From NCBI RefSeq assembly GCF_015163075.1, contig NZ_JADDXU010000021.1, positions 1 through 64,000 on the forward strand: a DNA stretch of 64,000 bases. The letters run 5' to 3'. Below are positions 1 through 28,416 of the stretch, in pieces (position 1 is the first letter of the stretch; each line of letters begins with the position of its first letter). The notes beneath the pieces are model-generated. The model was not told the DNA's origin and did not search any database. It was given only the letters and a program-made list of their open reading frames with translations. The position numbers and the translations under genes were made by a program. The stretch comes from Streptomyces justiciae (GTDB lineage: Bacteria; Actinomycetota; Actinomycetes; Streptomycetales; Streptomycetaceae).

Positions 1-3000
1 CCGTACCGTCTTCCCGGACGTCGAGGGTGTGCCGTACCAGGAGATCCGTGAGGGCGCCGAAGGCCGCCCCCAGCTCCAGGTCGTCGAGGCCGGCGAGCAG
101 TGGCGGGCGCTCATGCAGGAGGAGGCCGAGCGTGGCTTCGACGTCCGGGGTGATCTGCCGTGGCGGACCACTCTGCTGAAGGTCTCCGACACGGAGTGGG
201 TCCTGCTGCTGGTCGCGCATCACATCGCGACCGACGCCTGGTCGATGGGCGTACTCGCCCGCGACCTTCAGGGCGCCTATCGCGCCCGTCTTGTCGGGGC
301 GGCCCCGGAGTGGGAGCCGCTCCCCGTGCAGTACGCGGATTACGCGCTGTGGCAGCGGGAGGTGCTGGGCGACTTGGACGACGACGGGGCCGGTGCGGGG
401 TCGGCGCAGATCGAGTACTGGCGGGGGGTGCTGGAAGGGGCGCCGCAGGAGACGGTGCTGCCGTTCGACCGGCCGCGTCCGGCGGCGCCGTCGATCCGCA
501 GTGGGTCGGTGCCGGTCGGGGTGGATGCGGAGACGCATGCCCGGCTGACGGAGCTGGCCGCGCAGGGCGGGGCGACGATGTTCATGGTCGTGCATGCCGC
601 GCTGGTGGTGCTGCTGGCCCGGATGGGGGCCGGGGAGGACGTCTGCGTCGGTACGCCGGTCGCGGGCCGGTCCGATGTGCAGCTGGAGGATCTGGCCGGG
701 TTCTTCGTCAACACGCTCGTCCTCCGCTCCGACGCCTCTGGCGACCCCACCTTCGGGGATCTCCTGGCGCGTATCAGGGAGACCGATCTCTCGGCGTACG
801 CGCACCAAGACGTGCCGTTCGAACGGCTCGTCGACGAGCTGGGTGTGGCGCGTTCCGCGGCCCGCAACCCGCTGTTCCAGGTGATGCTGGCGCTTCAGAA
901 CGTGCCGAAGGCGCAGTGGGATCTTCAGGGGCTGGCGGTCGAGGAGATACCGCCCGCGTCCGACCCGGCCGCACGGTTCGACCTGTCGGTGGCGCTGAAC
1001 GAGTTCCACACCGCCGAGGGCGAGCCGGAGGGCATGCGCGGCGGCATCCTGTTCGCGGCCGATCTGTTCGACGAGGCGACGGTCCGTGCGCTGGCCGGGC
1101 GGCTGGAGCGGGTGCTGGAGCAGGTCGCGGCCGATCCGGAGCTGCGGCTGAGTGCCGTGGAGGTGCTGGACGAGGCCGAGCGGACCACGGTCGTGGCGGA
1201 GTGGAACGCCACGGCTCGCGACGCGGACGACGTCACCACGGTCGTGGAACGGTTCCGCGAGTGGGCCGCGCTGACGCCGACGGCGGTGGCACTGCGCACC
1301 CTCGACCGGTCGCTGACGTACGCCGAGGTGGAGGCGCGGTCGGACGCGCTGGCGCGTGGGCTGGTGGCGCGGGGTGTGGGCGCGGAGTCCCGGGTGGGGC
1401 TGTGCCTGCCGCGTGGCGCCGAGATGGTCGTGGCGATGCTGGCGGTGTGGAAGGCCGGTGGGGCGTACGTCCCGCTGGACCCGGAGTATCCCTCCGACCG
1501 GCTGGCCTACATGGTGACCGACAGCGCGGCACAGCTCGTGCTGGTCTCGGACGAGACCGCCGGCCGGCTGTCCGAGGGCATCGCCACCGTCCGCCTCGAT
1601 GAACTCGCGGGCGGTTCCGGTGACTTGCCGGATGTCGGTGCCGGCCAACTGGCCTACGTCATCTATACGTCGGGGTCGACGGGCCGTCCGAAGGGTGTGG
1701 CCGTGGCGCACGGCCCCGTGGCGAACCTGGCCACCGCCATGCGCCCGGTGCTCGGCGTCGAGCCGGGCGTGACGGCGTTGCAGTTCGCGTCGTTCAGCTT
1801 CGACGCCTCGGTCCTGGACGTCGCGGTGACGCTCGCCGCCGGCGGTACGTTGGCCATCGCGTCGGCCGAGGAGCGGCTGGACACCGCTGCGCTCGCCGCC
1901 CTGGTGGAGGCCTGCGGGGTCGAGGTCGCGAGCGTCGTCCCGTCGCTGCTCGGGGTGCTGGAGCCGGAGGCGGTCGCCGGGATCGGCAACTGGGTGCTGG
2001 GTGCCGAGCGGCTGGAGGCCGGTCTGGCCGCCAAGTGGCGGGCGCGGTCCAGGGTGTGGAACACCTACGGTCCGACCGAGGCGACCGTCATCACCACGGC
2101 GACGTTGCTGCCGAAGGGCCTCACCGCCGAGGACGCGCCGCCGCCCATCGGGCGCCCCCTGGAGAACGTCCGGACCCATGTCCTGGACGCCTATCTGCGG
2201 CCGGTGCCGGTAGGGGTGCCCGGCGAGCTGTACATCGCCGGTGACGGACTGGCCCGCGGTTACATCGGACGCCCGGACCTGACGGCGGAGCGGTTCGTGG
2301 CCTGCCCGTTCGACGCGGACGGTGGCCGGATGTACCGCACGGGTGACCTGGCCCGCTGGATGGCGGACGGGCGACTGGAGTTCGTGGGCCGTGCCGACGA
2401 GCAGGTGAAGATCCGTGGCTTCCGGGTCGAACTCGGGGAGGTGGAGGCCGCGTTGGCCGCCCACCCGGAGGTGAAGACGGCCATCGCGGTCGTACGCGAC
2501 GAACGGCTGATCGGCTACGTACTGCCGGTCGCCGGGCGGGAGCCGCGGGCGGACGCGGTACGGGAGTTCGCCGCCGGCCGGCTGCCGGACTACATGGTGC
2601 CGTCCGCCATCGTGCTGCTCGACGCCCTGCCGCTGACCGTCAACGGCAAGATCGACCGTGCCGCGCTGCCCGAGCCCGAGCGCGCGGCGGACGGTGGCCG
2701 TGCCCCGTCGACCCCGACCGAGGAGGCGCTGGCCGCCCTGTTCGCCGAGGTGCTGGACCTGGAGCAGGTCGGCGCCGAGGAGAGCTTCTTCGAACTCGGT
2801 GGTGATTCGCTGAAGGTGATGCGGCTGATCGCCCGTGTCCGCTCGGTGCTGGAGGCGTCGGTCGGGGTCCGTGAGGTGTTCGCCGAGCCGACCGTGGCCG
2901 GTGTCGCGCGGCTCGTCGACACGGCGGGGGCGTCGGCGGGCGTGGTGCTGGCGCGCCGGGAGCGCCCCGAGCGCGTCCCCCTGTCCTTCGCCCAGCAGCG

Positions 3001-5830
3001 GATGTGGTTCCTCAACCGCATCGACGAGACCGGGGCGTCCGCCTACAACCTCCCCTTCGCGCTGCGCCTGTCCGGCACCGTCGACACCGAGGCCCTCCAG
3101 GCGGCGCTCTGGGACATCGCCGACCGGCACGACAGTCTGCGGACGGTCTTCCCGGACGTGGAGGGAGTGCCGTACCAGGAGATCCGCGTGGGCGCCGAGG
3201 GGCGTCCGCGACTCCAGGTCATCGAGGCCGGCGAGCGGTGGCACGACCTCATGCAGGAGGAGATCGGGCGCGGCTTCGACGTGCGGGTCGATCTGCCGTG
3301 GCGGGCCTCCCTGTTGAGGATCTCGGAGACGGAGTGGGGCCTGCTGCTGGTGGCCCACCACATCGCCTCCGACGGCTGGTCGATGGGGGTGCTGGCGAAC
3401 GACCTCCAGAACGCCTATCGCGCCCGTCTGTCGGGTGCCGAACCGGGATGGGAGCCGCTTCCCGTCCAGTACGCCGACTACGCGCTGTGGCAGCGCGAGG
3501 TGCTCGGCGAGCTGGACGACCCGGAGAGCCCCGGCGCTGGGCAGATCGCTTACTGGCGGCGGGTGTTGGAGGGGGCGCCGCAGGAGACGGCGCTGCCGTT
3601 CGACCGGCCGCGTCCGGCGATGCCGTCGTTCCGCAGCGGTCAGGTGCCGGTGCGGGTGGACGCGGAGACGCATGCCCGGCTCACGGAGTTGGCCGCGCAG
3701 GGCGGCGCGACGATGTTCATGGTCGTGCATGCCGCGCTGGTGGTGCTGCTGGCCCGGATGGGTGCGGGGGAGGACGTCTGCGTCGGTACGCCGGTCGCCG
3801 GGCGTTCGGATGTGCAGCTGGAGGGGCTGGCCGGGTTCTTCGTCAACACGCTCGTTCTCCGCTCCGACGCCTCCGGTGACCCCACCTTCGGTGACCTGCT
3901 GGCCCGTATCAGGGAGACCGACCTCTCGGCGTATGCCTACCAGGACGTGCCGTTCGACAAGCTCGTGGACGAGCTGAACCCGACCCGGTCGGGGGCCCGC
4001 AGCCCGCTGTTCCAGGTGATGCTGGCGCTCCAGAACGTGCCCGAGGCGCAGTGGGACCTCGAAGGGCTGGCGGTCGAGCAGATCCCGCCGGCGGAGGACC
4101 CCGCGGCCCGCTTCGACCTCTCCTTCTCACTGGGGGAGCGGTGGTCCGAGCAGGGAGTCCCGGCCGGCATGGGCGGCGGCATCCTGTACGCGGCCGACCT
4201 GTTCGACGAGGCGACGGTCCGTGCGCTGGCCGGACGGCTGGAGCGGGTCCTGGAGCAGGTCGCGGCCGATCCGGAGCTGCGGCTGAGCGCCGTGGAGGTG
4301 CTGGACGCCTCCGAGCGGGCTGCGGTCGTCGACGGCTGGAACGCCTCCGACCAGCAGGTGGACACGTCAACCGTGCTGGAGCGGTTCCGTGCCCGTGCGG
4401 CCGGCGCGCCGGAGGCGGTCGCGGTGTGGTCCGAGGGTCGGGGGCTGTCGTACGCCGACCTGGACGCGCGGTCGGACGCGCTGGCGCGTGGGTTGGTGGG
4501 GCGCGGTGTGGGCCGGGAGTCCCGGGTGGGGCTGTGCCTGCCACGCGGTGCCGAGATGGTCGTGGCGATCCTGGCGGTGTGGAAGGCCGGTGGTGCGTAC
4601 GTCCCGCTGGATCCCGAATACCCGTCCGAGCGGCTGGTGTTCATGGCCGCGGACAGTGACGCCGAGCTGGTGCTGGTGACGGCCGAGACCGCCGACCGCC
4701 TGTCCGCCGAGGTCGACACCGTCCTGCTCGACGAGTTGGGCAGTGACGTCGGTGTACTGCCGGAGGTCGGCTCCGATCAACTGGCTTACGTCATCTATAC
4801 GTCGGGGTCGACCGGGCGTCCGAAGGGCGTGGCCGTGGCACACGCCTCCGTGGCCAACCTGGCGTCGGTGATGCGGCCGGTTCTCGGGGTCGAACCGGGC
4901 GTCACAGCCTTGCAGTTCGCGTCGTTCAGCTTCGACGCGGCGGTGCTGGACGTGGCGGTCACTCTCGCTGCGGGCGGCACGTTGGCGATCGCCTCGTCCG
5001 ACGAACGACTGGACGCGGCGGCGCTTGCGCGCATGATCGAGGCGGCCGGCGTCGGGGTGGCGAGTGTGGTGCCCTCCCTCCTCGGCGCGCTGGAGCCGGA
5101 GATGGTCTCCGGGATCGGGAACTGGGTGCTGGGCGCGGAGCGCCTGGAGGCCGGTCTGGCGGCCAAGTGGCGTGAGGGCGCCCGGGTTTGGAACACCTAT
5201 GGCCCCACCGAGGCGACCGTCATCACCACCGCCGTCCTCCTGGACGAGGGCATCACGGGCGAGGACGCCCCGCCCGCCATCGGCCGACCGCTCGGAAACG
5301 TCCGTACTTACGTCCTCGACGCCTCTCTCCGCCCCGTCCCCGTAGGGGTGACGGGTGAGCTGTACATCGCCGGTGACGGTCTGGCCCGCGGCTACGTCAA
5401 CCGCCCCGACCTGACCGCCGAGCGCTTCGTGGCCTGCCCCTTCGGTGACGGTGGCCGGATGTACCGCTCCGGTGACCTGGCCCGCTGGACAAGTGAAGGA
5501 CAGCTGGCCTTCGTCGGCCGTGCCGACGAGCAGGTCAAGATCCGTGGCTTCCGGGTCGAACTCGGGGAGGTGGAGGCCGCGTTGGCGGCCCACCCGGACG
5601 TGAAGACGGCCATAGCGGTCGTACGGGAGGACCGCCCGGGCCAGCCGCGCATCGTCGCGTACGTCCTTCCGGGCGACTCCGGGGCCGCGGACCTTGAGGC
5701 CGGGAGTCTGCGGGAGTTCGCGGCGACGCGGCTCCCGGACTACATGGTCCCCTCGGCCGTGGTCGTCCTCGACGCGCTGCCGCTGACGGTCAACGGCAAG
5801 GTCGACCGGGCCGCGCTGCCCGTCCCCGAT
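1..5830 (+). repeat. Tandemly duplicated C-A module within the NRPS gene
   Basis: The C-A part of module 1 and of module 2 are near copies. The sequence around base 29 recurs at 3167 (offset 3138 bp), and the A3 motif region near 1649 recurs at 4781 (offset 3132 bp). The protein is almost identical through both C and A domains. The carrier domains (LGGDSLKVM versus LGGNSALAM) are clearly different, so the homogenised block stops before the T domains. Assembly of this region from short reads could be error-prone. Confidence 0.85.
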
Positions 5831-8800
5831 CCGGAGAGCGACGGCTCGGGTCTCCTGCCCCGGAACGGGACCGAGGCGCTGCTGTGCACCCTGTTCGCCG
5901 GGGTGCTGGGCGTCGACCGGGTGGCCGCCGACGGCAACTTCTTCGATCTGGGCGGCAATTCGGCGCTGGCGATGCACCTCGCGGGCCGGGTCCGGTCGGA
6001 GATCGGGGCGGAGCTGAACCTGAAGCAGTTCTTCGGTGATCCGACGCCGATCGGCGCGGCACGCATCCTGGGCACCAAGTCGCGTCCCTCGCTGCTGCCG
6101 GTCGACCATGAGGGGGGCGAGGCGCCGGCGACGGCCGGGCAGCGGTTCGTCTGGCGGCGGGCCGCGGCCGATCCGGGTACGCGGGCCCTCCAGTCGTCGG
6201 TCGCCCTGCGGCTGCGCGGGGAACTCGACCGGGACGCGCTGCGGGCGGCGCTGGCGGATGTGGCCGCACGGCACGCCATCCTGCGGACGGTCTTCGCCGA
6301 GACCCCGGACGAGGGACTGGTCCAGCGGATTCTGGACGCCGGCGATCCCGCGGCCCGACCGGAGCTCCCGGTCGTCACGGCGGCCGAGCGGGAACTTCCC
6401 GCCGTACTGGCCGCCGGGGCCGCCCGCCGGTTCGACCTCGCGAGCGAAACCCCCTGGGCCGCCACGCTGTTCGAGCTCTCCGACACCGACCATGTCCTGC
6501 TCCTCGTACTGCACCGGATCGGTGGCGACGACGCGTCCCGCGACGCTCTCGTGCGCGATGTCTCCGTGGCGTACGGCGCGCGCTGGGAGGGCCGGGCCCC
6601 GGAGCGGGCGCCCCTGCCGCTCCAGTTCGCCGACTACGCGGTCTGGGAGAGCCGGCTGCTCGCGGACGCGGACGCGGAGACGGCGGAGAGCGTGGCCGGT
6701 GATCAGCTCGCGTACTGGAAGGAGGTGCTGGCGGACGCGCCGTCCGCGATCACGCTTCCCGTGGACCGGCCGCGGTCCGCGCGGCTCAGCCGGCGGACCG
6801 GCGCGGTGCCGCTGCGGGTACCCGCCCCGGTGCACGTCCAGCTGACGGAGACGGCCCAGTCGCTCGGCGTGACCTCGGTCGCCGTGGTGCACGCCGGGCT
6901 GGCGATGCTGCTCGCCCGGATGGGCGCCGGCACCGATCTGGTGCTCGGCGCGGTGGCGCCGCGGCCGACCGGCGAGGGTGAACTCGAGGCGGTCATGGGC
7001 CCGTTCGCCGGGTTGCTGCCGCTGCGCACCGATGTCTCGGGCGACCCGACGTTCCGGGAGATGCTCGGCCGGGTCCGGGAGACCACCGAGGAGGCGGAGC
7101 GGTCCCGGGACGTGCCGTTCGCGCGGATCGCCGAGGCCCTGGGCGTCGCGGACACGGCACCGGGTGACCCGCATCCGCTCGTCCAGGTCGTCCTGGACGT
7201 CCGGGACGACACCGCGGCGAAGTGGGACGTCCCGGCGGTCCCGGGGCTGGACGCCTCGCTCGTCGGCCTCGGCACCCCGGCGTCCGCGTTCGATCTGACG
7301 GTACGGCTGACCGACCGGCACCGGGACGACGGCGGGCCCGACGGCCTCGACGGCAGCCTGGACTACGCCGAGGAACTGTTCGACCGGGCCACCGCCGCCG
7401 CTCTCGTACGGCGTCTGCTGCGGCTCCTCGGACAGGTGGCGACCGAGCCCGAACTGCGGCTGAGCCAGCTCGACATCCTGCTCGGCGAGTCGGAGCGGCG
7501 GCAGCTGACCGAGGACTGGAACCGCGGCGCGGCCAGGGTCCCGGACGGCACCGTGCTCCCGGCGCTCGCCGAAGCCGCGGTACGCGAGCCGGGCGCGCCG
7601 GCCGTCCAGGACCGGCACGGCTCCCTCAGCCGCCGCGCCCTGGACCGGGCCGCCGCGTGGCTCGCCGCGGGGCTGGACCGGCGCGGGGTGGGCGCGGGCG
7701 ACACCGTGGTGGTGGCGGTACGGCCCGGCACCGACTGGGCGGTCGCCGTGCTCGGCGTGCTCCGGTCGGGCGCCATGTGCCTGATCGCCGACCCCGACGC
7801 CCCCGAGGGTCCGTTGTCGGCGGCGGCCGGACTGGGCTGCGTACGGCCGGCCGCGCTCGTCGTGGCGTCGGGGACGGGGGAGAAGGACTCCGTGGCGACG
7901 GTGCCCGTGCTGCGGGTGGCGGACGCGATCCGGGCCGCGGGCAGGCGGCTGCGCCGTCCCGCCGTACTCCCGGACCCGCTGCCGTCCCAGCCGGCCGTAC
8001 TGCTCCCCGCGGAGGCGCCGGACGGCACGCTCGTGGGCGAGCTGGTGGACCACCGGTCCCTGCTCGGCCGGGTGATCGACCGTCAGGCGGCCTCCCCGTC
8101 GTCCGAGTCGGCCGCCGCCACGCTCCACCTGGACGCGGCCGCGCCGGTCACCGACCTGCTCGTCGGACTGCTGGCCGCGCTGAGCGGGGGGCGTACCGCT
8201 GCTGTGGAGACCGGCGCGCAGGGTGAGGGTCGTACCGCCGCTGTGGAGACCGCCGCATCGAGCGACGGCCCTACCGCCCCTGCCGGGGCCACCGCCTCGG
8301 GTACGGGCTCCAGCCCGATCGCCGCCCTCTCCCTCCCCCGCACCGCCCGCGCCTACGTCCTCGACGAGTGGCTCCGGCCGGTACCGGTCGGGGTGGCCGG
8401 TGACCTGTACGTCGCGGGGCCGTCGCTGGCCCGTGCCTACGCCGGGGCCCCCGCCCGCACCGCGGGCAGCCTCGTCGCCGATCCCTTCGGGCGCGGCGGT
8501 GATCTGATGCTGCGTACCGGGCGGCGTGCCGCGTGGACCTCGGACGGGCTGGTGCAGCCGCGTGCCGCGCTGGACGGCGCGGCCGGGCTGACGGCGCCGC
8601 GGCGGGCCGGGCGGCGGCGTGACGACCTCGACGCGCTGCTGGCGTTGCAGAGCGGCGGGTCCCGGACGCCGCTGTTCTGCCTGCACCACAGCACCGGGCT
8701 GGCCTGGTCCTACGCCGCGCTGCTGCGCCACCTGCCGCAGGATCTGCCGGTCTACGGCCTCCAGACGCCCGGGTTCACCGACCGCAGGGCGATGCCGGGC

Positions 8801-9445
8801 AGCGTGCCGGAGCTGGTGGCCGACTACGTCGAGCGGATCCGCTCGGTGCAGCCCGAAGGGCCGTACCAGCTGCTCGGCTGGTCCTTCGGCGCGGTGCTGG
8901 CCCAGGCCATCGCCGCGGAGCTGGAGGAGCGGGGCGAGGAGGTCACGCTGCTGGCGCTGCTGGACGGCTTCCCCGGCGGACACCACCGCAGGGACGAGGA
9001 CGGGCCGCGCCAGGAAGGCGACGACGGCGACGCCGCCGGTGTGGACGGGACGCGCGTCCGGATCGACGGCGCCGCGGACCAGGAGGGGCGGGCCCTGCTC
9101 GACGGGCCCGGGGCGATGAGCCCGCCGGCCGACTCGTTCACGGTGAACGTGGAGGAGACGAAGGAGCACATGATCCGGCTGGCGCAGGGCCACACACCCC
9201 GGCGCTTCGGCGGTGGCGCGCTGCTGTTCCTGGCCACCGAGGGCGATCTGGCCCAGCTGTCGCTCGCGGCGGCGCGCTCCACCTGGGAGCAGTACATCGC
9301 CGAGCCCATCGAGGGGTTCGAGATCGCCGCCGACCACGTCGGGATGCTCCGCGGCACGCACGCCGAGACCATCGGCCGGGAGGTCGCCCGACGCCTGGTG
9401 GCACCGGAATCCACGTCAGACCACAAGCCCGTGTCAGAAAGGTAG
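1..9445 (+). CDS. Non-ribosomal peptide synthetase, C-terminal part (C-A-T-C-A-T-X-relic A-TE), 5' end outside window
   Basis: The reading frame is open from base 2, so the gene starts upstream. Domains by base position: partial C (to about 1200, HHxxxDA at 218-238); A1 (about 1230-2690, motifs [31 protein letters not shown]); T1 (LGGDS at 2795-2809); C2 (HHIASDG near 3355-3376); A2 (about 4370-5830); T2 (LGGNS at 5948-5962); a third condensation-like domain (about 6115-7510) with HRIGGDD at 6512-6532; a decayed A-like stretch (about 7540-8610); and a thioesterase (about 8620-9400, GWSFG at 8876-8890). HRxxxDD is the change I know from glycopeptide X domains, which recruit P450s and do not condense. 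No carrier protein follows it, so the peptide should reach the thioesterase from T2. The P450 gene starts 7 bp after the stop. Family certain; X-domain assignment likely; amino acids loaded unknown. Confidence 0.95.
8192..8300 (+). repeat. Three imperfect 39-bp tandem repeats inside the relic adenylation region
   Basis: Units begin near 8192, 8231 and 8270 and encode 13-residue repeats of the type GRTAAVET followed by five variable residues; the third unit is more diverged. They sit where the A4-A5 substrate-binding core of a normal adenylation domain has been lost. Confidence 0.75.
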
Positions 9446-9452
9446 GACTCGC

Positions 9453-10622
9453 ATGACGCAGTCGTTCGAGCTTCCGGTCGACAAGCGCCGGAACGTCCTG
9501 GACCCGGTGCCGGAGCTCCTGGAACTCAACGCGCGGGCGCCGCTGTTCCGGCCCCCCGGCGGGATGCCCCACTGGATCGTGACCGATCGTGAGGTGGTGC
9601 GGCAGATCCTCGCCGACGCCGAGCGGTTCTCCAGCATGCCGCCGCCCGAGCCGGACGGCCGCAAGCCCGATCCGCACCCGGGGAGCCTGCTCCAGACCGA
9701 CGGGGCCGAGCACAGCCGGCTGCGGCGGCTGGTGGCGCCGATGTTCACGGTGCGGCAGATGAAGGCGCTGGAGCCGATGATGGCGCGGATCGTGGACCAG
9801 CGGCTGGAGGTGCTGGAGCGGGCCGGCCGCCCCGCTGACCTGATGCGGTACTTCGCCCGGCCGGTGTCGGGCCTGATCCTCGCCGAGCTGATCGGCCTGC
9901 CCCGCGACGACCTGTCGGAGCTGTCCCGGCTCGGTGACCACCGGGCGTCCGGGCACAGCCCCCGGCGCCATCCGGCGACGTCGGAGTACGTGGGGCACTT
10001 CCGGAAACTGGCCGCCGCCCAGCGCCGCGATCCGGGCGAGGGCCTGGCCGGGATGCTGATCCGCGAGCACGGCGACGCGGTGTCGGACGAGGAGGTGGCC
10101 GGCATCTGCGAGAGCGTCGCCAACGGCTCGATCGAGAACACCGCGGAGACCATCGGCCTGGGGGTGCTGGCGCTGCTGTGTCATCCCGACCAGCTGGCCC
10201 TGCTGCGCGAGCGGCCGGAGCTGATGGACCGGGCGGTGGAGGAGCTGCTGCGCTATGTGTCGGTGGTGGCGTCCGTGTCGCCGCGGACCGCGCTGGTGGA
10301 CGTGGAGATCGGCGGGGAGCTGATCAAGGCCGGCGAGGTCGTGTCGTGCTCGGTGTTCGCCGCGAACCGCTGCCCGTACGGCGGCGACGACGGCACCGCG
10401 GACCGTCTGGACGTCGCCCGGGAGCCCGGCAACCACCTGGCGCTGGGCTTCGGCGTGCACTTCTGCCTCGGTGCGGCGCTGGCGCGGCTCCAGCTGCGGA
10501 TCGCGCTGACGGGGCTGCTGGAGCGTTTCCCCGGCCTGCGGCTGGGCACCGGGGTGGAGGAGCTGCGGTTCCGGTCGCTGGCGCCGCAGTTCGGCGTCGA
10601 GACGCTGCCGGTCCTGTGGTGA
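9453..10622 (+). CDS. Cytochrome P450 (candidate peptide-tailoring or cross-linking oxygenase)
   Basis: A 389-residue soluble bacterial P450 of usual length. ExxR is at E264-R267. The haem-binding loop is LGFGVHFCLG with Cys338 as iron ligand; the usual first Phe is Leu. In the I helix the normal A-G-x-E-T motif reads G-S-I-E-N, so the acid is E228 and the conserved Thr is replaced by N229. The start is the ATG 10 bp after a GGTAGGA ribosome site. The gene lies 7 bp after the NRPS stop and 5 bp before a ferredoxin gene, so all three are probably one transcript. Next to an X-domain NRPS the likely substrate is the carrier-bound peptide, and aromatic cross-linking in the manner of Oxy enzymes is the leading guess. 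Beta-hydroxylation of an aminoacyl thioester is an alternative. Confidence 0.93.
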   Translation: MTQSFELPVDKRRNVLDPVPELLELNARAPLFRPPGGMPHWIVTDREVVRQILADAERFSSMPPPEPDGRKPDPHPGSLLQTDGAEHSRLRRLVAPMFTVRQMKALEPMMARIVDQRLEVLERAGRPADLMRYFARPVSGLILAELIGLPRDDLSELSRLGDHRASGHSPRRHPATSEYVGHFRKLAAAQRRDPGEGLAGMLIREHGDAVSDEEVAGICESVANGSIENTAETIGLGVLALLCHPDQLALLRERPELMDRAVEELLRYVSVVASVSPRTALVDVEIGGELIKAGEVVSCSVFAANRCPYGGDDGTADRLDVAREPGNHLALGFGVHFCLGAALARLQLRIALTGLLERFPGLRLGTGVEELRFRSLAPQFGVETLPVLW

Positions 10623-10627
10623 GGCCG

Positions 10628-10960
10628 GTGGCGGACACGGCACACCCGGCACACACGGCGGATACGGCGGATACCGCGGATACGGCAGATACGGCGGGCA
10701 CCGCGGGTACCGCGGACACGGCCCGGGTGGGCATCCGGGTCGACCGGGACAGCTGTGTGGGCTCGGGCGCCTGCGCGCTGTTCGAGCCGGAGTTCTTCGA
10801 CCAGTCGGAGGAGGACGGCCTGGTCGTGCTCCGGGCGCGGGAGGCGGGCGCTGAGGCGCTGCCCGCGTTGCGCCGGGCCGCGTCCCGCTGTCCCGCTCGC
10901 GCCATCACGCTGGTGCCGTCCGACGGACAGGGAAGTGCCGGGTGGGACCGGTCTGACTGA
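10628..10960 (+). CDS. 3Fe-4S type ferredoxin, likely electron donor of the adjacent P450
   Basis: A 110-residue protein. Its last ~75 residues form a small single-cluster ferredoxin with C43-x5-C49 (CVGSGAC) and a third cysteine C88 in RCPARAI, the spacing of P450-partner 3Fe-4S ferredoxins. The first ~35 residues are an unusual Thr-Ala-Asp repeat from a 9-bp DNA repeat and are probably disordered. The GTG start lies 5 bp after the P450 stop, so translation is probably coupled. A ferredoxin reductase is not seen in the window and would come from elsewhere in the genome. A downstream start just before the ferredoxin fold is possible but lacks a good ribosome site. Confidence 0.9.
   Translation: MADTAHPAHTADTADTADTADTAGTAGTADTARVGIRVDRDSCVGSGACALFEPEFFDQSEEDGLVVLRAREAGAEALPALRRAASRCPARAITLVPSDGQGSAGWDRSD
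10634..10722 (+). repeat. 9-bp minisatellite encoding Thr-Ala-Asp repeats
   Basis: About eight imperfect copies of a nonamer close to ACGGCGGAT occur in a row at the start of the ferredoxin gene. They keep frame and encode TAD units with TAG variants. Such arrays vary in copy number by slippage, so length differences between strains are expected. Confidence 0.85.
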
Positions 10961-10969
10961 ACGGCCCCG

Positions 10970-11009
10970 CGGGGCGCCCGTTGCAACCCTGGTGTGACCG
11001 GGCGCCCCG
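10970..11009. promoter_or_regulatory. Perfect 11-bp inverted repeat between the ferredoxin and lipoprotein genes
   Basis: Arms at 10970-10980 and 10999-11009 are exact reverse complements (CGGGGCGCCCG) around an 18-base loop that starts with the small palindrome GTTGCAAC. There is no T-run after it, and it lies only 13 bp before the lipoprotein ATG. It could be an operator for the export operon, a leader hairpin, or a weak terminator of the NRPS-P450-ferredoxin transcript. Confidence 0.6.
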
Positions 11010-11022
11010 TAGAACTTCTGGT

Positions 11023-11610
11023 ATGCCGAATAACCATCAGAAGCGCGTGACCGGGCCCCTCCTGGCGGTGCTGTCCGTGATGACAGCAGGAGCACTTCTC
11101 GCCGGCTGTTCGTCGGGCGAGGAGGACGCCACCGTGACCAGCGAAGGCGGCGCGAACTCCTCTTCCTCGAGTGCGGGCGGCACGGAGAGCGCGGGCGTGG
11201 CTTACGCGCAGTGCATGCGCGAGCACGGTGTCTCGGAGTTCCCCGACCCGGAGAAGGACAGCGGGGGCGGCGTGAAGCTCGTCATCCCGCAGGGCGTCGA
11301 CCAGAACTCGCCGACCTTCAAGTCGGCCCAGTCCGCCTGTCAGGGCCTGCTCTACCAGGGCGACACCGGTGACGCCGCCGGCAGCCGGGCCTTCGACGCG
11401 ACGAAGGTCGCCGCCTGGGCCAAGTGCATCCGCGAGAACGGCGTCCCCAACTTCCCCGACCCGCAGGTGAACGGGAACACGATCGTCATCGACGCCAACG
11501 CCTCCGGCCTGACCGGGCGGGACGATCCCAAGTTCTCCAAGGCGGCCGAGGCCTGCTACAGCATCCGGCCCGGCGGCACGCTCGCCTTCATGGGAGGGCC
11601 GCAGGGATGA
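11023..11610 (+). CDS. Secreted lipoprotein with two CxR-FPDP repeats, linked to an ABC efflux operon
   Basis: A 195-residue protein with a signal peptide and lipobox LLAGC at residues 25-29, so it should be lipid-anchored outside the membrane. After a Ser/Gly linker it has two homologous segments of the form (Q/K)C-x-RE-x-GV-x-x-FPDP, each followed by a distal Cys, suggesting two small disulfide-bonded units. I know this type only as an uncharacterised actinomycete family that travels with MacA/MacB-like genes. It overlaps the next gene by ATGA. Function unknown; a substrate-capture or accessory role for the exporter is inference. Confidence 0.8.
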   Translation: MPNNHQKRVTGPLLAVLSVMTAGALLAGCSSGEEDATVTSEGGANSSSSSAGGTESAGVAYAQCMREHGVSEFPDPEKDSGGGVKLVIPQGVDQNSPTFKSAQSACQGLLYQGDTGDAAGSRAFDATKVAAWAKCIRENGVPNFPDPQVNGNTIVIDANASGLTGRDDPKFSKAAEACYSIRPGGTLAFMGGPQG

Positions 11611-15183: not shown

Positions 15184-15408
15184 ATGGCGAACCCGTTCGA
15201 TGATGAAGACGGGACCTTTCTGGTGCTCGTGAACAGGGAGAATCAGCACTCGTTGTGGCCTGCATTCGCTGAAATTCCGAATGACTGGAGGCTCGTTTTC
15301 GGAGAGGCCTCGCGCAAGGAATGCCTCGCCTATGTGGAGGAGAGCTGGACGGACCTGCGTCCGCAGAGCCTCATCGACGCCATGAAGGAGACCGAGGCGG
15401 CCCGCTAG
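15184..15408 (+). CDS. mbtH: MbtH-like protein
   Basis: A 74-residue protein with the family hallmarks: NPFDDEDG at the N-terminus, then the invariant tryptophans and SLWP, with FGEA and WTDLRPQSL. MbtH proteins bind adenylation domains and are needed for folding or activity of many NRPSs. The start is the ATG 7 bp after GGGAG; the same frame is open further upstream, but family length supports this start. It is the first gene behind the 14976 StrR-type box and lies 40 bp before the ABC exporter. Its partners here would be the two A domains of the NRPS and others upstream of the window. Confidence 0.96.
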
Positions 15409-17891: not shown

Positions 17892-18899
17892 GTGGAGTCC
17901 GAGGGAGCAATAAGTCAGCAGCCCGTCGTGGAGGTCGAGATCGGCTCGTTGAGCCTGTCCGGATCGCCACGGTTGGCCGGAGAGAGAACGGAGCACATCC
18001 AGGTACTCGCGGCGGCGCAGAATCCGCTGCCGCCGATCACGGTGCACCGGCAGACGATGCGGGTCATCGACGGCTACCACCGGCTGAAGGCCGCCCGGTT
18101 GCGCGGCGAGAGCAGGATCGCCGCCCGGTTCTTCGACGGCGACGAAGCCGCGGCCTTCGTCCTCGCGGTCCAACTCAACGTCCACCACGGCCTTCCGCTG
18201 GCGCTCGCCGACCGCAAGCGCGCCGCCGAGCGCATCGTCGTCTCCCATCCGCAGTGGTCCGACCGCAGGGTCGCCTCGGTCACCGGGATCGCCCCCGGGA
18301 CCGTCGGCGAGATCCGCAAGCGGGTCGTCCAGCTGCCGGGACCGGAGGGACGGCGGCTCGGTCAGGACGGCAGACTGCGGCCGGTCGACGGCAGTACCGG
18401 CCGCATCCTGGCAGGTGAACTGCTCACGGAGAACCCGGAGCTGTCACTGCGTCAGGTCGCGCGGGCGGCCGGGATCTCCCCGGAGACCGCCCGGGACGTA
18501 CGCAACCGGCTGCGCAACGGCGAGGACCCGCTGCCCCGGCAGCGCCGGCGCAAGCAGGAGCGGACCGAACCCGGGGAGCCGCCCGGGCGCGGGGAGTTCG
18601 GGGCGCTGCGACTCGCCCGGCCGGCTCCCCGGACCCGCCCGGACATGACGCAGGCGCCGGACCGCGCCGTGCTCATCAAGCGACTGAAGGCCGACCCGGC
18701 ACTGCGCTTCACGGAGACCGGCCGCAACCTGCTGCGCCTGCTCGTCCTGCACTCGCTGCGCAAGGAGGAGTGGGAGGCGATCGTCAGCAACGTCCCGCCG
18801 CACTGCAGCGACATCGTGGCGGATCTCGCCCGGCAGTTCGCCGACCTCTGGTCGGATTTCGCCGAGCGGGTCAGGGACGACGTCGCACAGATCGGCTGA
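17892..18899 (+). CDS. StrR-family pathway-specific transcriptional activator
   Basis: A 335-residue protein with a ParB-like N-terminal domain (about residues 20-100, including ITVHRQTMRVIDGYHRLKAA). A helix-turn-helix follows (VASVTGIAPGTVGEIRKRV), and a second HTH-like segment occurs near residue 200 (LRQVARAAGISPETARDVR). Length and layout match StrR, Bbr, Dbv4 and Tei15*, which activate streptomycin and glycopeptide clusters. The GTG start follows AAGGAG. Its probable targets are the two boxes at 14976 and 21988. A strong terminator follows 22 bp after the stop, so it is monocistronic. Function well supported; the effector, if any, is unknown. Confidence 0.94.
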   Translation: MESEGAISQQPVVEVEIGSLSLSGSPRLAGERTEHIQVLAAAQNPLPPITVHRQTMRVIDGYHRLKAARLRGESRIAARFFDGDEAAAFVLAVQLNVHHGLPLALADRKRAAERIVVSHPQWSDRRVASVTGIAPGTVGEIRKRVVQLPGPEGRRLGQDGRLRPVDGSTGRILAGELLTENPELSLRQVARAAGISPETARDVRNRLRNGEDPLPRQRRRKQERTEPGEPPGRGEFGALRLARPAPRTRPDMTQAPDRAVLIKRLKADPALRFTETGRNLLRLLVLHSLRKEEWEAIVSNVPPHCSDIVADLARQFADLWSDFAERVRDDVAQIG

Positions 18900-22097: not shown

Positions 22098-23438
22098 ATG
22101 GGCCTGGATCTCGTGCTGGAAGAATCCCCGGAAACCGCGGTCCACCCGCTGCGCAAGGACGACCTGCACCCGAGCCTCTCCGACCCCGTCCTGGACACGA
22201 TGACCTTCCTCAACGAGGTCACCCACCGCTTCCCGGACGCGATCTCCTTCGCGCCCGGCAGGCCCTACGACGGGTTCTTCGACACCGAGCAGATCTTCAC
22301 GTACCTGCGCCGCTACCTGGACCACCTGGCCGCGCAGGGCGCCACGGAGCAGGACGTACGGACCGCGATGTACCAGTACGGGCCCACCGCGGGCCAGATC
22401 CGGGAGATCGTCGCCGACTCGCTGCGCAAGGACGAGGACATCGACGTCCCCGCCGAGTCGATCGTGATCACCGTCGGCGCCCAGGAGGCCATGCTGCTGG
22501 TGGTGCGGGCGCTGACCGCCGGCCCCGAGGACACGCTCCTCGTCGCGAGCCCCTGCTACGTCGGCATCACCGGCGTGGCCCGGCTGCTGGGCGTGCCGGT
22601 GACCGCCGTCGAGGAGCGGGAGGACGGGTTCTCCCGCGCCGACCTGGAGGCCGCGATCCTGCGGGAGCGCGCCCGGGGACGGCGGCCCCGCGCCCTCTAT
22701 GTGATCCCCGACCACTCCAACCCGTCCGGGACCACGATGGACCTGCCGACGCGCCACGCGCTGCTGGAGGTGGCCGAGCGGTACGGCATCCTCCTCATCG
22801 AGGACAGCCCGTACCGCCGGGTGAGTCCCGGCACGCCGCTGCCGACGCTCAAGTCCCTGGACCGGTCCCGTCGCGTCGTCCACCTCGGCTCGTTCGCCAA
22901 GACGGTCTTCCCGGGCGCCCGGGTCGGCTTCGCCGTCGCCGACCAGCAGGTGGTCGACGACGAGGGCCGGACCGGGCTGCTGGCCGCCGAACTCGCCAAG
23001 ATCAAGAGCATGGTGACGGTCAACACCTCGTCGCTGAGCCAGGCCGCGGTGGCGGGCGCCCTGCTGGCCGGCGACGGCCGGCTCTCCGTCCTCAACGCGG
23101 AACCGGCCGCCTACTACGGCGACGCCCTGCGGACCACGCTGCGCGCCCTGGACGCCCGGCTGCCCGAGGCCCGGCGCACCGCCCTGGGCGTGCGCTGGAA
23201 CGAGCCCACCGGCGGCTTCTTCCTCACCGTCCACGTTCCCTTCCGGGCGGACAACGCGGCCCTGACCCGGTCGGCACAGGAATTCGGCGTCATCTGGACG
23301 CCGATGACCTACTTCTATCCGCAAGGCGGCGGCCATCAGGCCCTCCGTCTCTCCACCAGCTATCTGACGACCGCCGATATCGAAGAAGGCACCGAGCGGC
23401 TCGCGCGGTTCATCGAGGCACAGGCTTCGGCGTCGTGA
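22098..23438 (+). CDS. hpgT: Aminotransferase for (di)hydroxyphenylglycine, PLP-dependent
   Basis: A 446-residue fold-type I aminotransferase of the MocR/KAT-like group. The PLP lysine is in LGSFAKTVFPGARVGF; PDHSNPSG and EDSPYRR are the substrate and cofactor loops. In Dpg clusters HpgT transfers an amino group to 3,5-dihydroxyphenylglyoxylate, and in others to the 4-hydroxyphenyl analogue, usually from tyrosine. The ATG follows GGGGGGAA. It is the first gene after the 21988 box and precedes dpgA. No hmaS or hmo gene is in the window, so whether 4-hydroxyphenylglycine is also made cannot be judged. Confidence 0.93.
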   Translation: MGLDLVLEESPETAVHPLRKDDLHPSLSDPVLDTMTFLNEVTHRFPDAISFAPGRPYDGFFDTEQIFTYLRRYLDHLAAQGATEQDVRTAMYQYGPTAGQIREIVADSLRKDEDIDVPAESIVITVGAQEAMLLVVRALTAGPEDTLLVASPCYVGITGVARLLGVPVTAVEEREDGFSRADLEAAILRERARGRRPRALYVIPDHSNPSGTTMDLPTRHALLEVAERYGILLIEDSPYRRVSPGTPLPTLKSLDRSRRVVHLGSFAKTVFPGARVGFAVADQQVVDDEGRTGLLAAELAKIKSMVTVNTSSLSQAAVAGALLAGDGRLSVLNAEPAAYYGDALRTTLRALDARLPEARRTALGVRWNEPTGGFFLTVHVPFRADNAALTRSAQEFGVIWTPMTYFYPQGGGHQALRLSTSYLTTADIEEGTERLARFIEAQASAS

Positions 23439-23525
23439 ACTCTCCGGAAAGGCGAGGCAAGTGAGCGGGAACAGCCATGCACAGCGATCGCGGTCCAAGC
23501 CGCGAATGTGGGGGTGGACTTTTCG

Positions 23526-27476
<3,951 letters not shown>

Positions 27477-27495
27477 GCCGGACGCGGTGACCCCC

Positions 27496-27540
27496 GGCCC
27501 GCCGACAGGAACCCGAACACGTCGGCGGGCCCGCCCCTTT
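27496..27540 (+). terminator. Hairpin after dpgD
   Basis: An 11-bp perfect stem, GGCCCGCCGAC with GTCGGCGGGCC, and a 14-base loop are followed by CCGCCCCTTT. The short T-run makes it a moderate terminator or attenuator between dpgD and the hydrolase. Confidence 0.65.
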
Positions 27541-27606
27541 CGGCTCCCCCACCTCCGGTCCTCTCCGGACCTCTCTTCTGGTTTCCGACCGCGGAAGGAC
27601 ATGCCG

Positions 27607-28416
27607 ATGCCGATCGCGTACGTCAACGGGATCGATCTCAGTTACGACGACCATGGCCCGGCCGGCCGGGCGGAGCCCGTCGTGATGCTCGCCGGCACCG
27701 GCGGCCCGGGACGGATCTGGCGCAGCCATCAGGTCCCCGCGCTCAAGGCGGCCGGCCACCGGGTGATCACGCTCGACAACCGGGGCATCCCGCCGACCGG
27801 ACCGTCCGTCGTCGGGTTCACCCTCGCCGACATGGCCGCGGACGTCGCCGCGCTGATCGAGCGCCTGGGGGCGGGGCCCTGCCGGATCGTGGGCCACTCG
27901 CTGGGCGGTCTCATCGCGCAGGAACTCGTCCTCGCCCGCCCCGAACTCGTCAGCCGTGCCGTGCTGATGGCCAGCTGCGGCCGGGCGGACGCGCTGATCG
28001 AGGCCATGTCGGCCGCCGACATCGAACTCGCCGACAGCGGCGTCAAGATCCCGCCCTCCGTGACGGCGTACCAGCACGCCCTGCAGAACCTCTCGCCCCG
28101 CACCCTCAACTACGAGGACGGGCTGCGGGACTGGCTCGGCATCTTCGAGCTCTCCGCGCCCGACCCGTCGACGATCCGCGCCCAACTCGGCCTCGAGGTC
28201 ATCCCGAACCGCCTTCCGCACTACCGCCGGATCAGCCGCCCCTGCCTCGTCATCGGCTTCCAGGACGACCTGGTCGTCCGCCCGCACCTGTCGCGCGAAC
28301 TCGCCCTGGCCATCCCGGGCGCCCGGTACACGGAGATCCCCGGCTGCGGCCACTACGGCTATCTGGAGCGGCCCGACGCCGTGAACGAGGCGCTCATCGC
28401 CTTCCTCGCCGACTGA
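27607..28416 (+). CDS. Alpha/beta hydrolase
   Basis: A 269-residue alpha/beta hydrolase with nucleophile elbow GHSLGG (Ser near residue 97), an acid in GFQDDLVV and catalytic His in GCGHYGYLERP. I chose the second of two nearby ATGs because AAGGA lies 7 bp upstream of it but only 1 bp from the first (27601). It is the last plus-strand gene before genes of general metabolism, so it may be the cluster edge. It could be a type II editing thioesterase-like or ester/lactone hydrolase, but sequence alone does not tell. Its 3' end overlaps the convergent kinase gene by 23 bp. Confidence 0.85.
   Translation: MPIAYVNGIDLSYDDHGPAGRAEPVVMLAGTGGPGRIWRSHQVPALKAAGHRVITLDNRGIPPTGPSVVGFTLADMAADVAALIERLGAGPCRIVGHSLGGLIAQELVLARPELVSRAVLMASCGRADALIEAMSAADIELADSGVKIPPSVTAYQHALQNLSPRTLNYEDGLRDWLGIFELSAPDPSTIRAQLGLEVIPNRLPHYRRISRPCLVIGFQDDLVVRPHLSRELALAIPGARYTEIPGCGHYGYLERPDAVNEALIAFLAD

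Follow-up and report, generated by a model that had tools for sequence, protein, structure and literature searches.

The window analysed here is a stretch of 64,000 nucleotides of Streptomyces justiciae DNA whose base 1 is the first base of contig C14, in a genome of 10.45 Mb, and it opens inside a terminal nonribosomal peptide synthetase (NRPS) gene. The question raised by this locus is what lies between the X domain and the thioesterase (TE) of that synthetase, how it came to be there, and why a part of it has been conserved. The NRPS reading frame is uninterrupted from the contig start to position 9445, and the domain order given by Pfam is C-A-T-C-A-T, followed by a third C-like domain, a third, partial adenylation (A) domain and the TE; two PP-binding domains are found upstream of X and the TE downstream, with the partial A domain (dA) in between. 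The parts of the gene relevant to this question are the following.

29..9445, + strand: terminal NRPS gene, (C)-A-T-C-A-T-X-dA-TE, from Pfam and the open frame; the 5′ end is lost at the contig start
6107..7495, + strand: X domain (P450-recruitment type), with HRIGGDD in place of HHxxxDG
7496..7600, + strand: C-A type linker, collinear with the intact-module linker in the alignment to window module 2
7568..7825, + strand: A remnant, A1-A2 region, weakly constrained (Pfam AMP-binding, segment residues 10-95)
7826..8209, + strand: degenerate A3-A4 zone, ATP loop lost (HMM 2-199 match, alignment to module 2)
8176..8253, + strand: low-complexity filler at the former A4-A5, with a 39-nt tandem duplication; locus L021 lacks 48 nt here
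8342..8554, + strand: A6-A7 remnant, the conserved piece, with A7 Asp replaced by Arg (AA-adenyl-dom 301-372; dN/dS 0.078-0.082)
8555..8668, + strand: A7-to-TE junction, with A8-A10 and the carrier deleted (HMM end points of uncut linkers)
8669..9442, + strand: thioesterase domain (PF00975, protein residues 2881-2992)

By its sequence, the third C-like domain is an X domain of the P450-recruitment type. Its best PDB match is 4tx2 (module 7 NRPS, E = 3.9e-111), which we take to be the teicoplanin X domain, followed by 6m7l (E = 3e-107). For the kistamicin X domain, a passage of PMC6565677 describes the change of HHxxxDG into HRxxxDE. The 24 X rows analysed, the window's included, form a single clade with 100/100 support against 20 other rows, some of which, although labelled C, are probably epimerisation domains picked up by the same motif. 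Inside this clade, eight X domains with short linkers group with the long-form L137 (99/97), and the window clade, which includes L018 and L019, groups with L134/L135 (99/95). The initial annotation had seen in this locus a possible snapshot of X-domain evolution; this part of it is not upheld, the window X lying inside an old X clade shared with Amycolatopsis-type X, and the window having only retained more of an old relic. No intact A3 motif was found within 700 aa after X for any of 38 X hits among 292 X-profile hits; this search covered the fetched loci only, with a profile made from the same X domains, and the 38 hits are redundant and in some cases cut by locus ends. At L023/L135 and L024/L134, the X active site reads HPIAADE, not HRxxxDD, and two PRDD P450 genes adjoin. 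Regarding the rest of the window's NRPS, Pfam gives only three C-like stretches and no separate epimerisation domain. Several modules on contigs C35, C36 and C14 (L005 1-9209, L006 1-4055, window 29-5800) have one A-domain type in common (...VLGAERL...), perhaps specifying a run of one aromatic residue, possibly dihydroxyphenylglycine (Dpg).

Directly after the NRPS gene come a P450 and a ferredoxin gene, and then ABC/FtsX genes, an MbtH motif, a regulator and a putative Dpg-supply set.

9453..10622, + strand: cytochrome P450 carrying PRDD, the motif of Oxy enzymes recruited by X (PF00067, LPRDDLSEL)
10658..10960, + strand: ferredoxin (PF13370/PF13459)
15214..15390, + strand: MbtH-like protein gene, limits approximate, from the SLWP...WTDLRP motif only
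17892..18899, + strand: regulator with HTH (Pfam), presumably StrR-like
22098..28416, + strand: aminotransferase, type III PKS, enoyl-CoA hydratase-like proteins and alpha/beta hydrolase (Pfam), probably a Dpg supply set of the HpgT/Dpg kind

One P450 gene follows the NRPS in the window clade, and two or three in relatives with enough flank, while none is visible on the short contig of L133; for the window this count covers the 3′ side of the synthetase gene, since the contig does not include the cluster's 5′ part. Of the features expected in a type V glycopeptide cluster (Dpg supply genes with a StrR-type regulator, at least two Oxy P450 genes, a Trp-Hpg cross-linked product), the window offers the putative supply set and regulator and one P450 gene beside the NRPS. 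In the P450 of the window clade (4/4: window, L018, L019 and L021), Leu replaces the heme-loop Phe (ALGFGVHFCLG in the window) and the I helix reads ANGSIENT, both traits being unlike the five other Oxy-type proteins aligned.

The segment between X and TE is homologous to A domains. Taken alone, its 357 aa match Pfam AMP-binding (E = 2e-20) and NCBIfam AA-adenyl-dom (2.9e-24), each in two stretches, and, among PDB entries, NRPS chains with E values as low as 4.3e-30, a whole-chain value summed over four stretches in two A domains, with the best single stretch at 1e-7. An HMM of 27 intact A domains with their carrier was run on 24 linkers, one of them contig-cut, and on 2400 shuffled linkers (100 for each of the 24); the window linker scores 99 bits over HMM 2-199 and 301-370, compared with 13.3 bits for the best shuffle. 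These profile matches bear out the initial reading of the segment as an A-domain remnant, and the motifs on which that reading had relied sit where it placed them in the alignment to the module-2 A domain. Compared with that domain, the segment retains A1, A6, an A2 that can still be recognised and an A7 that is damaged, as well as the C-A linker; gone are A5, the A3 loop and the Asp of A4, and the whole stretch from A8 to the carrier, both included. The absence of A4-A5, A8-A10 and the carrier, also claimed at the outset, is confirmed by this alignment, by the HMM end points and by the Ala/Thr-rich filler that replaces A4-A5 and includes the 39-nt tandem duplication (82% identical). A7 reads LRTGRRAA, with Arg instead of Asp. 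All the signs of a functional A domain that were considered (A3 P-loop, A5 GPTE, A7 Asp, A10 Lys) are missing from the segment. On sequence grounds, 7541-8611 is a catalytically dead A-domain remnant, in frame between X and TE, which with these motifs lost would be unable to activate an amino acid.

The remnant is found well beyond this genome. An in-frame segment is present in S. shenzhenensis, Streptomyces sp. NRRL F-525, S. monomycini, S. pseudovenezuelae and S. griseoviridis; the loci with this in-frame architecture in other assemblies are L018, L019 and L022-L024. The best seven relatives in the GTDB-based collection match across the query, one only to residue 819, where its contig ends; one MAG contig ends within the segment. 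With a 125-aa query, counting matches that run from residue 1 or 2 to the end, the remnant-TE junction was found in at least 12 of the 149 other sampled genomes of the genus, or at least 13 of 150 with the window's own; the next-ranked matches start from residue 26 onwards, at the TE or close to it, and among the matches listed a few weaker ones (E 5.9e-26 or worse) start at query residues 8-25. The S. pseudovenezuelae and S. griseoviridis loci appear to be two of these 12, and thus counted in both searches. X is visible in 11 of the 12, the contig of the twelfth beginning downstream of X. In a phylum-wide sample, the long junction was recovered at E ≤ 1e-35 from at least one of 198 genomes, the window's own. 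In a class-wide sample, the short junction gave at least 3 of 345, namely a long-form locus of G154 and two TE-only matches, in a search that misses long forms, the window's own locus being absent from its matches. A record titled Virgibacillus salexigens (L028) has an NRPS that matched the actinobacterial query, and its title may be wrong. L021 (Streptomyces sp. GKU 895; 95% identical, positions 10300-11160) carries indels that shift and then restore the frame inside the remnant; these breaks are either sequencing error or a real loss, which would mean loss of function and would count against the explanation preferred below. A unique recent decay in the window is ruled out, since relatives carry the junction and the X domains form one old clade.

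Across these proteins, the remnant forms a graded series. The window linker is about 390 aa long, and those of five measured relatives 367-446 aa; Amycolatopsis coloradensis has an X-TE protein in which the linker is down to ~110 aa and still reads LLDGDLRPVAPGAVGDLYVTG...PCPFGEPGHRMLPTG. A short version of this kind, with A6-A7 only, was found by a match to the full short junction in the X-TE proteins of at least 8 of 120 genomes of the Amycolatopsis family, A. coloradensis included. Judging from X, from the three PRDD P450 genes beside the A. coloradensis X-TE gene and from the genus, the short-form proteins of this family would be classical glycopeptide synthetases. Against the A-domain HMM, scores of 123-197 bits are reached by the 12 Streptomyces linkers that do not belong to the window clade; ten of these span HMM ~1 to 377, and that of L133 matches in three pieces. 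The three uncut linkers of the window clade reach 90-99 bits with the middle missing or weak, and the L020 linker, cut by its contig, 28.6 bits. Eight short linkers score 30-49 bits over HMM 290-385, and L120, a short form within the window's own genus, 41.6 bits. All 24 linkers and L120 thus lie above every shuffle, so that A-domain homology is present in the other X-TE proteins surveyed and the idea that X-TE linkers are unrelated to A domains, which had been named as a possible refutation, is contradicted. The piece present in all nine short linkers scored is A6-A7. Two results of this series weigh against the explanation preferred below: the short A. coloradensis linker (L126) has no Pfam match and weak NCBIfam matches (E = 4.1e-6 and 1.3e-4), and the match of L137, which among long forms lies nearest to the short ones, is limited to HMM 2-63 and 273-373.

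The series has a common end point. In the uncut X-TE linkers the match stops at HMM 370-385, whereas in ordinary T-TE controls the 125 aa before the TE match HMM 443-561 (A10 and carrier) in 14/14 cases, with a carrier signature in 13/14; A8-A10 and the carrier are therefore missing from the same place on. A carrier-like motif, sought with a regular expression, occurs in one of the 24 linkers, that of L130, where it is located in the A2-A3 zone. Linker scoring, dN/dS and trees leave out L132, whose contig shows no X, and L021, because of its frame breaks. Set against the 27 intact A domains, the 15 long remnants group together with 100/100 support; their branches are long, so that this monophyly could partly be attraction, which tempers the preferred explanation, and the alignment rows of two of them, including the window's, have residues in no more than a fifth of the columns. 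Taking into account that the X domains with short linkers nest with the long-form L137, the long form is likely ancestral, and the loss of A1-A5 on the short-linker branch would be independent of that of A4-A5 in the window clade. The common 3′ end point of the remnants, the monophyly of X domains and of remnants and the nesting of the short form among the long ones support one ancestral extra C-A-T-TE module.

The explanation that we consider probable is that an additional C-A-T-TE module, once the last of the synthetase, left its A domain behind as this relic while its C domain became X, with A6-A7 most likely kept for structural reasons. In an ancestor of the X-TE synthetases compared, the last C domain would have lost HHxxxDG and become X, a platform that brings in P450 (Oxy) enzymes to act on the peptide attached to the carrier before it. 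A8-A10 and the carrier would have disappeared in a deletion running from immediately behind A7 up to the TE, leaving a residual A core with neither ATP binding nor amino-acid loading. Erosion would then have been uneven: the core remained nearly whole in many Streptomyces, lost A4-A5 in the window clade and was reduced to A6-A7 in the Amycolatopsis-type proteins. A6-A7 would most likely be kept in a structural role, folding onto or spacing X and TE and thereby allowing the peptide on the upstream carrier to be cross-linked at X and then released by the TE.

Selection on the remnant was assessed by pairwise dN/dS (Nei-Gojobori, with 95% bootstrap), the window clade providing three pairs. In these, A6-A7 is under purifying selection, with dN/dS of 0.078-0.082 and 95% bootstrap upper limits of 0.17-0.28, compared with 0.48-0.70 for A1-A5, 0.27-0.48 for X and 0.35-0.74 for TE. 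By point estimate, no other part of the X-to-TE region has a dN/dS as low as A6-A7 in this clade, although in one pair of the three, window-L018, there is overlap with the interval of X. The A1-A2 region gives 0.65 for window-L018, 0.48 for window-L019 and 0.59 with the cut L020. Gene conversion is not the explanation of the low ratio, since A6-A7 has an ordinary dS. A6-A7 is also low in L128-L130 and L134-L135 (0.19-0.21). Other pairs count against the preferred explanation: A6-A7 gives 0.38-0.56, not below X, in L136-L138, L136-L022 and L128-L129; two short-linker pairs give 0.35 for A6-A7, a value close to that of X (0.35-0.42) and without special constraint; and L128-L129 and L128-L130 show no clear relaxation of A1-A5 (0.35-0.49). 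In the window clade, then, A1-A5 is weakly and A6-A7 strongly constrained, and elsewhere the contrast is smaller or absent. The initial description of a decayed fossil consequently fits a dead domain with weakly constrained A1-A5; it does not fit A6-A7 of the window clade. Furthermore, catalysis is not the reason for the retention of A6-A7, because the A7 Asp is mostly lost, being kept in 3 of the 15 long remnants and in none of the seven short linkers counted.

Two predicted structures have mean pLDDT values of 64 and 63; the A6-A7 piece is of low confidence (pLDDT blocks 36-69), so that no packing of it on the TE can be read from the model, which counts against the preferred explanation. The first model fits A cores over residues ~1-365 (Z 24-27); two intact A domains of the window are in its alignment, and this fit is therefore not independent evidence. 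A Foldseek search with the first model ranks whole terminal modules first.

Among the alternatives, the one that survives best, though we regard it as unlikely, is that the relic was retained as a docking site for an MbtH-like protein, a dead A domain keeping only its partner-binding face. Passages of the published work place the MbtH contacts of A domains on two Ala and one Arg (A405, A410 and R422 in TxtB; A841 and R853 in ObiF1). By our own mapping, based on spacing, these residues fall in the A6-A7 piece, and an MbtH motif is present in the cluster. Among the long remnants, 13 of 15 keep the pocket Ala and 13 of 15 the Arg, against the three with the A7 Asp, but the first contact Ala is kept in only 4, and conservation of the fold alone would yield a similar pattern. 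Of the three uncut, unbroken members of the window clade, two (L018 and L019) have Pro at the pocket Ala, and in the short linkers, 7 of 9 being counted, the pocket Ala is found in one and the Arg in three; the count is without L020 (contig-cut) and without L140 and L144, where the anchor motif was not found. Given the Pro in the two window-clade members and the loss of most of the pocket in short linkers, a structural role next to the TE is preferred.

That the whole segment is neutral filler, which need only stay in frame, is less probable still. The N-terminal and middle parts of A1-A5 would agree with it, having dN/dS of 0.39-0.94 in window-clade and L136 pairs together with indels and the tandem duplication, and the frame breaks of L021 fall there; the lack of special constraint on A6-A7 in some other pairs points in the same direction. 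Neutrality is, however, difficult to reconcile with a dN/dS of about 0.08 at ordinary dS for A6-A7 in the window clade, or with the occurrence of this piece in all nine short linkers scored. We hold it very unlikely that an A-domain fragment was recombined into a pre-existing X-TE linker instead of being left in place. NRPS genes often recombine, and homology alone would be compatible with such an insertion, but C, linker and A follow one another collinearly with an intact module, the homology extends to the C-A linker, the uncut remnants all end at one 3′ point and the remnants group in a single clade. A misassembly or frameshift concealing an intact A-T has a negligible probability: the window does start at a contig edge within repetitive NRPS DNA, but the frame is open, the segment in the NRPS frame contains neither A8-A10 nor a carrier, and in-frame relatives in other assemblies carry the same structure, which rules this candidate out.

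An extra-module origin as such is already in print. For glycopeptide synthetases, a passage of PMC8949500 regards X and a 120-aa extension close to the TE as a former additional module, and another, citing Peschke 2018, notes a degree of homology between 'the Te domain' and an A domain; in our reading, this 'Te domain' is the 120-aa extension. The in-place origin from a C-A-T-TE module put forward in the initial annotation is favoured by collinearity, by the monophyly of X and remnant and by the shared end, but it is no new idea. The glycopeptide synthetases (teicoplanin Tcp12, kistamicin) resemble the window in that an X whose HHxxxDG is altered follows the last carrier and precedes the TE, in having PRDD P450 genes, and in the extension ascribed in that passage of PMC8949500 to a former module. 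They differ from it in the 120 aa given there for the extension, against about 390 aa with A1-A7 recognisable in the window, and in two or three P450 genes after the NRPS, where the window clade shows one. For Tcp12, a section of PMC6333238 calls the part next to the TE a linker or extended TE, and reports that removal of linker and TE left upstream A-domain activity intact, cross-linking and release being outside that measurement. The Streptomyces X-TE synthetases with 2-3 Oxy genes, which probably belong to type V glycopeptide clusters (of the complestatin, corbomycin or GP6738 kind), share with the window the long dA remnant, X, TE and P450s, mostly a ferredoxin and often the same ABC/FtsX genes; most of them keep a degenerate A4-A5 zone, which the window clade has lost. 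An ordinary C-A-T-TE module has the same domain order and C-A linker, and in contrast keeps A8-A10 and the carrier, both absent from the X-dA-TE part of the window, where the C and A sites are dead. No description of the long near-complete relic, the common end point, the polarity given by the X tree or the selection pattern was found in the literature searched, outside which most subscription papers lie; the new part is the long, graded remnants.

The earlier extra-module proposal rested on a short extension, and the long relics, as a polarised series with a common deletion point, make it directly testable. For annotators, a truncated A domain before the TE is to be read as a heritable feature of X-TE proteins and not as an error. 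The series also singles out one small retained piece, whose role in glycopeptide cross-linking or release can be tested by deletion. More tentatively, all X-TE synthetases might possess a third working part, an exapted A6-A7 mini-domain that holds X and TE, or an MbtH-like partner, in geometry; we rate this as possible yet doubtful. If true, the Streptomyces series would keep the intermediates of an exaptation, from a near-complete dead A core to a 75-residue minimum.
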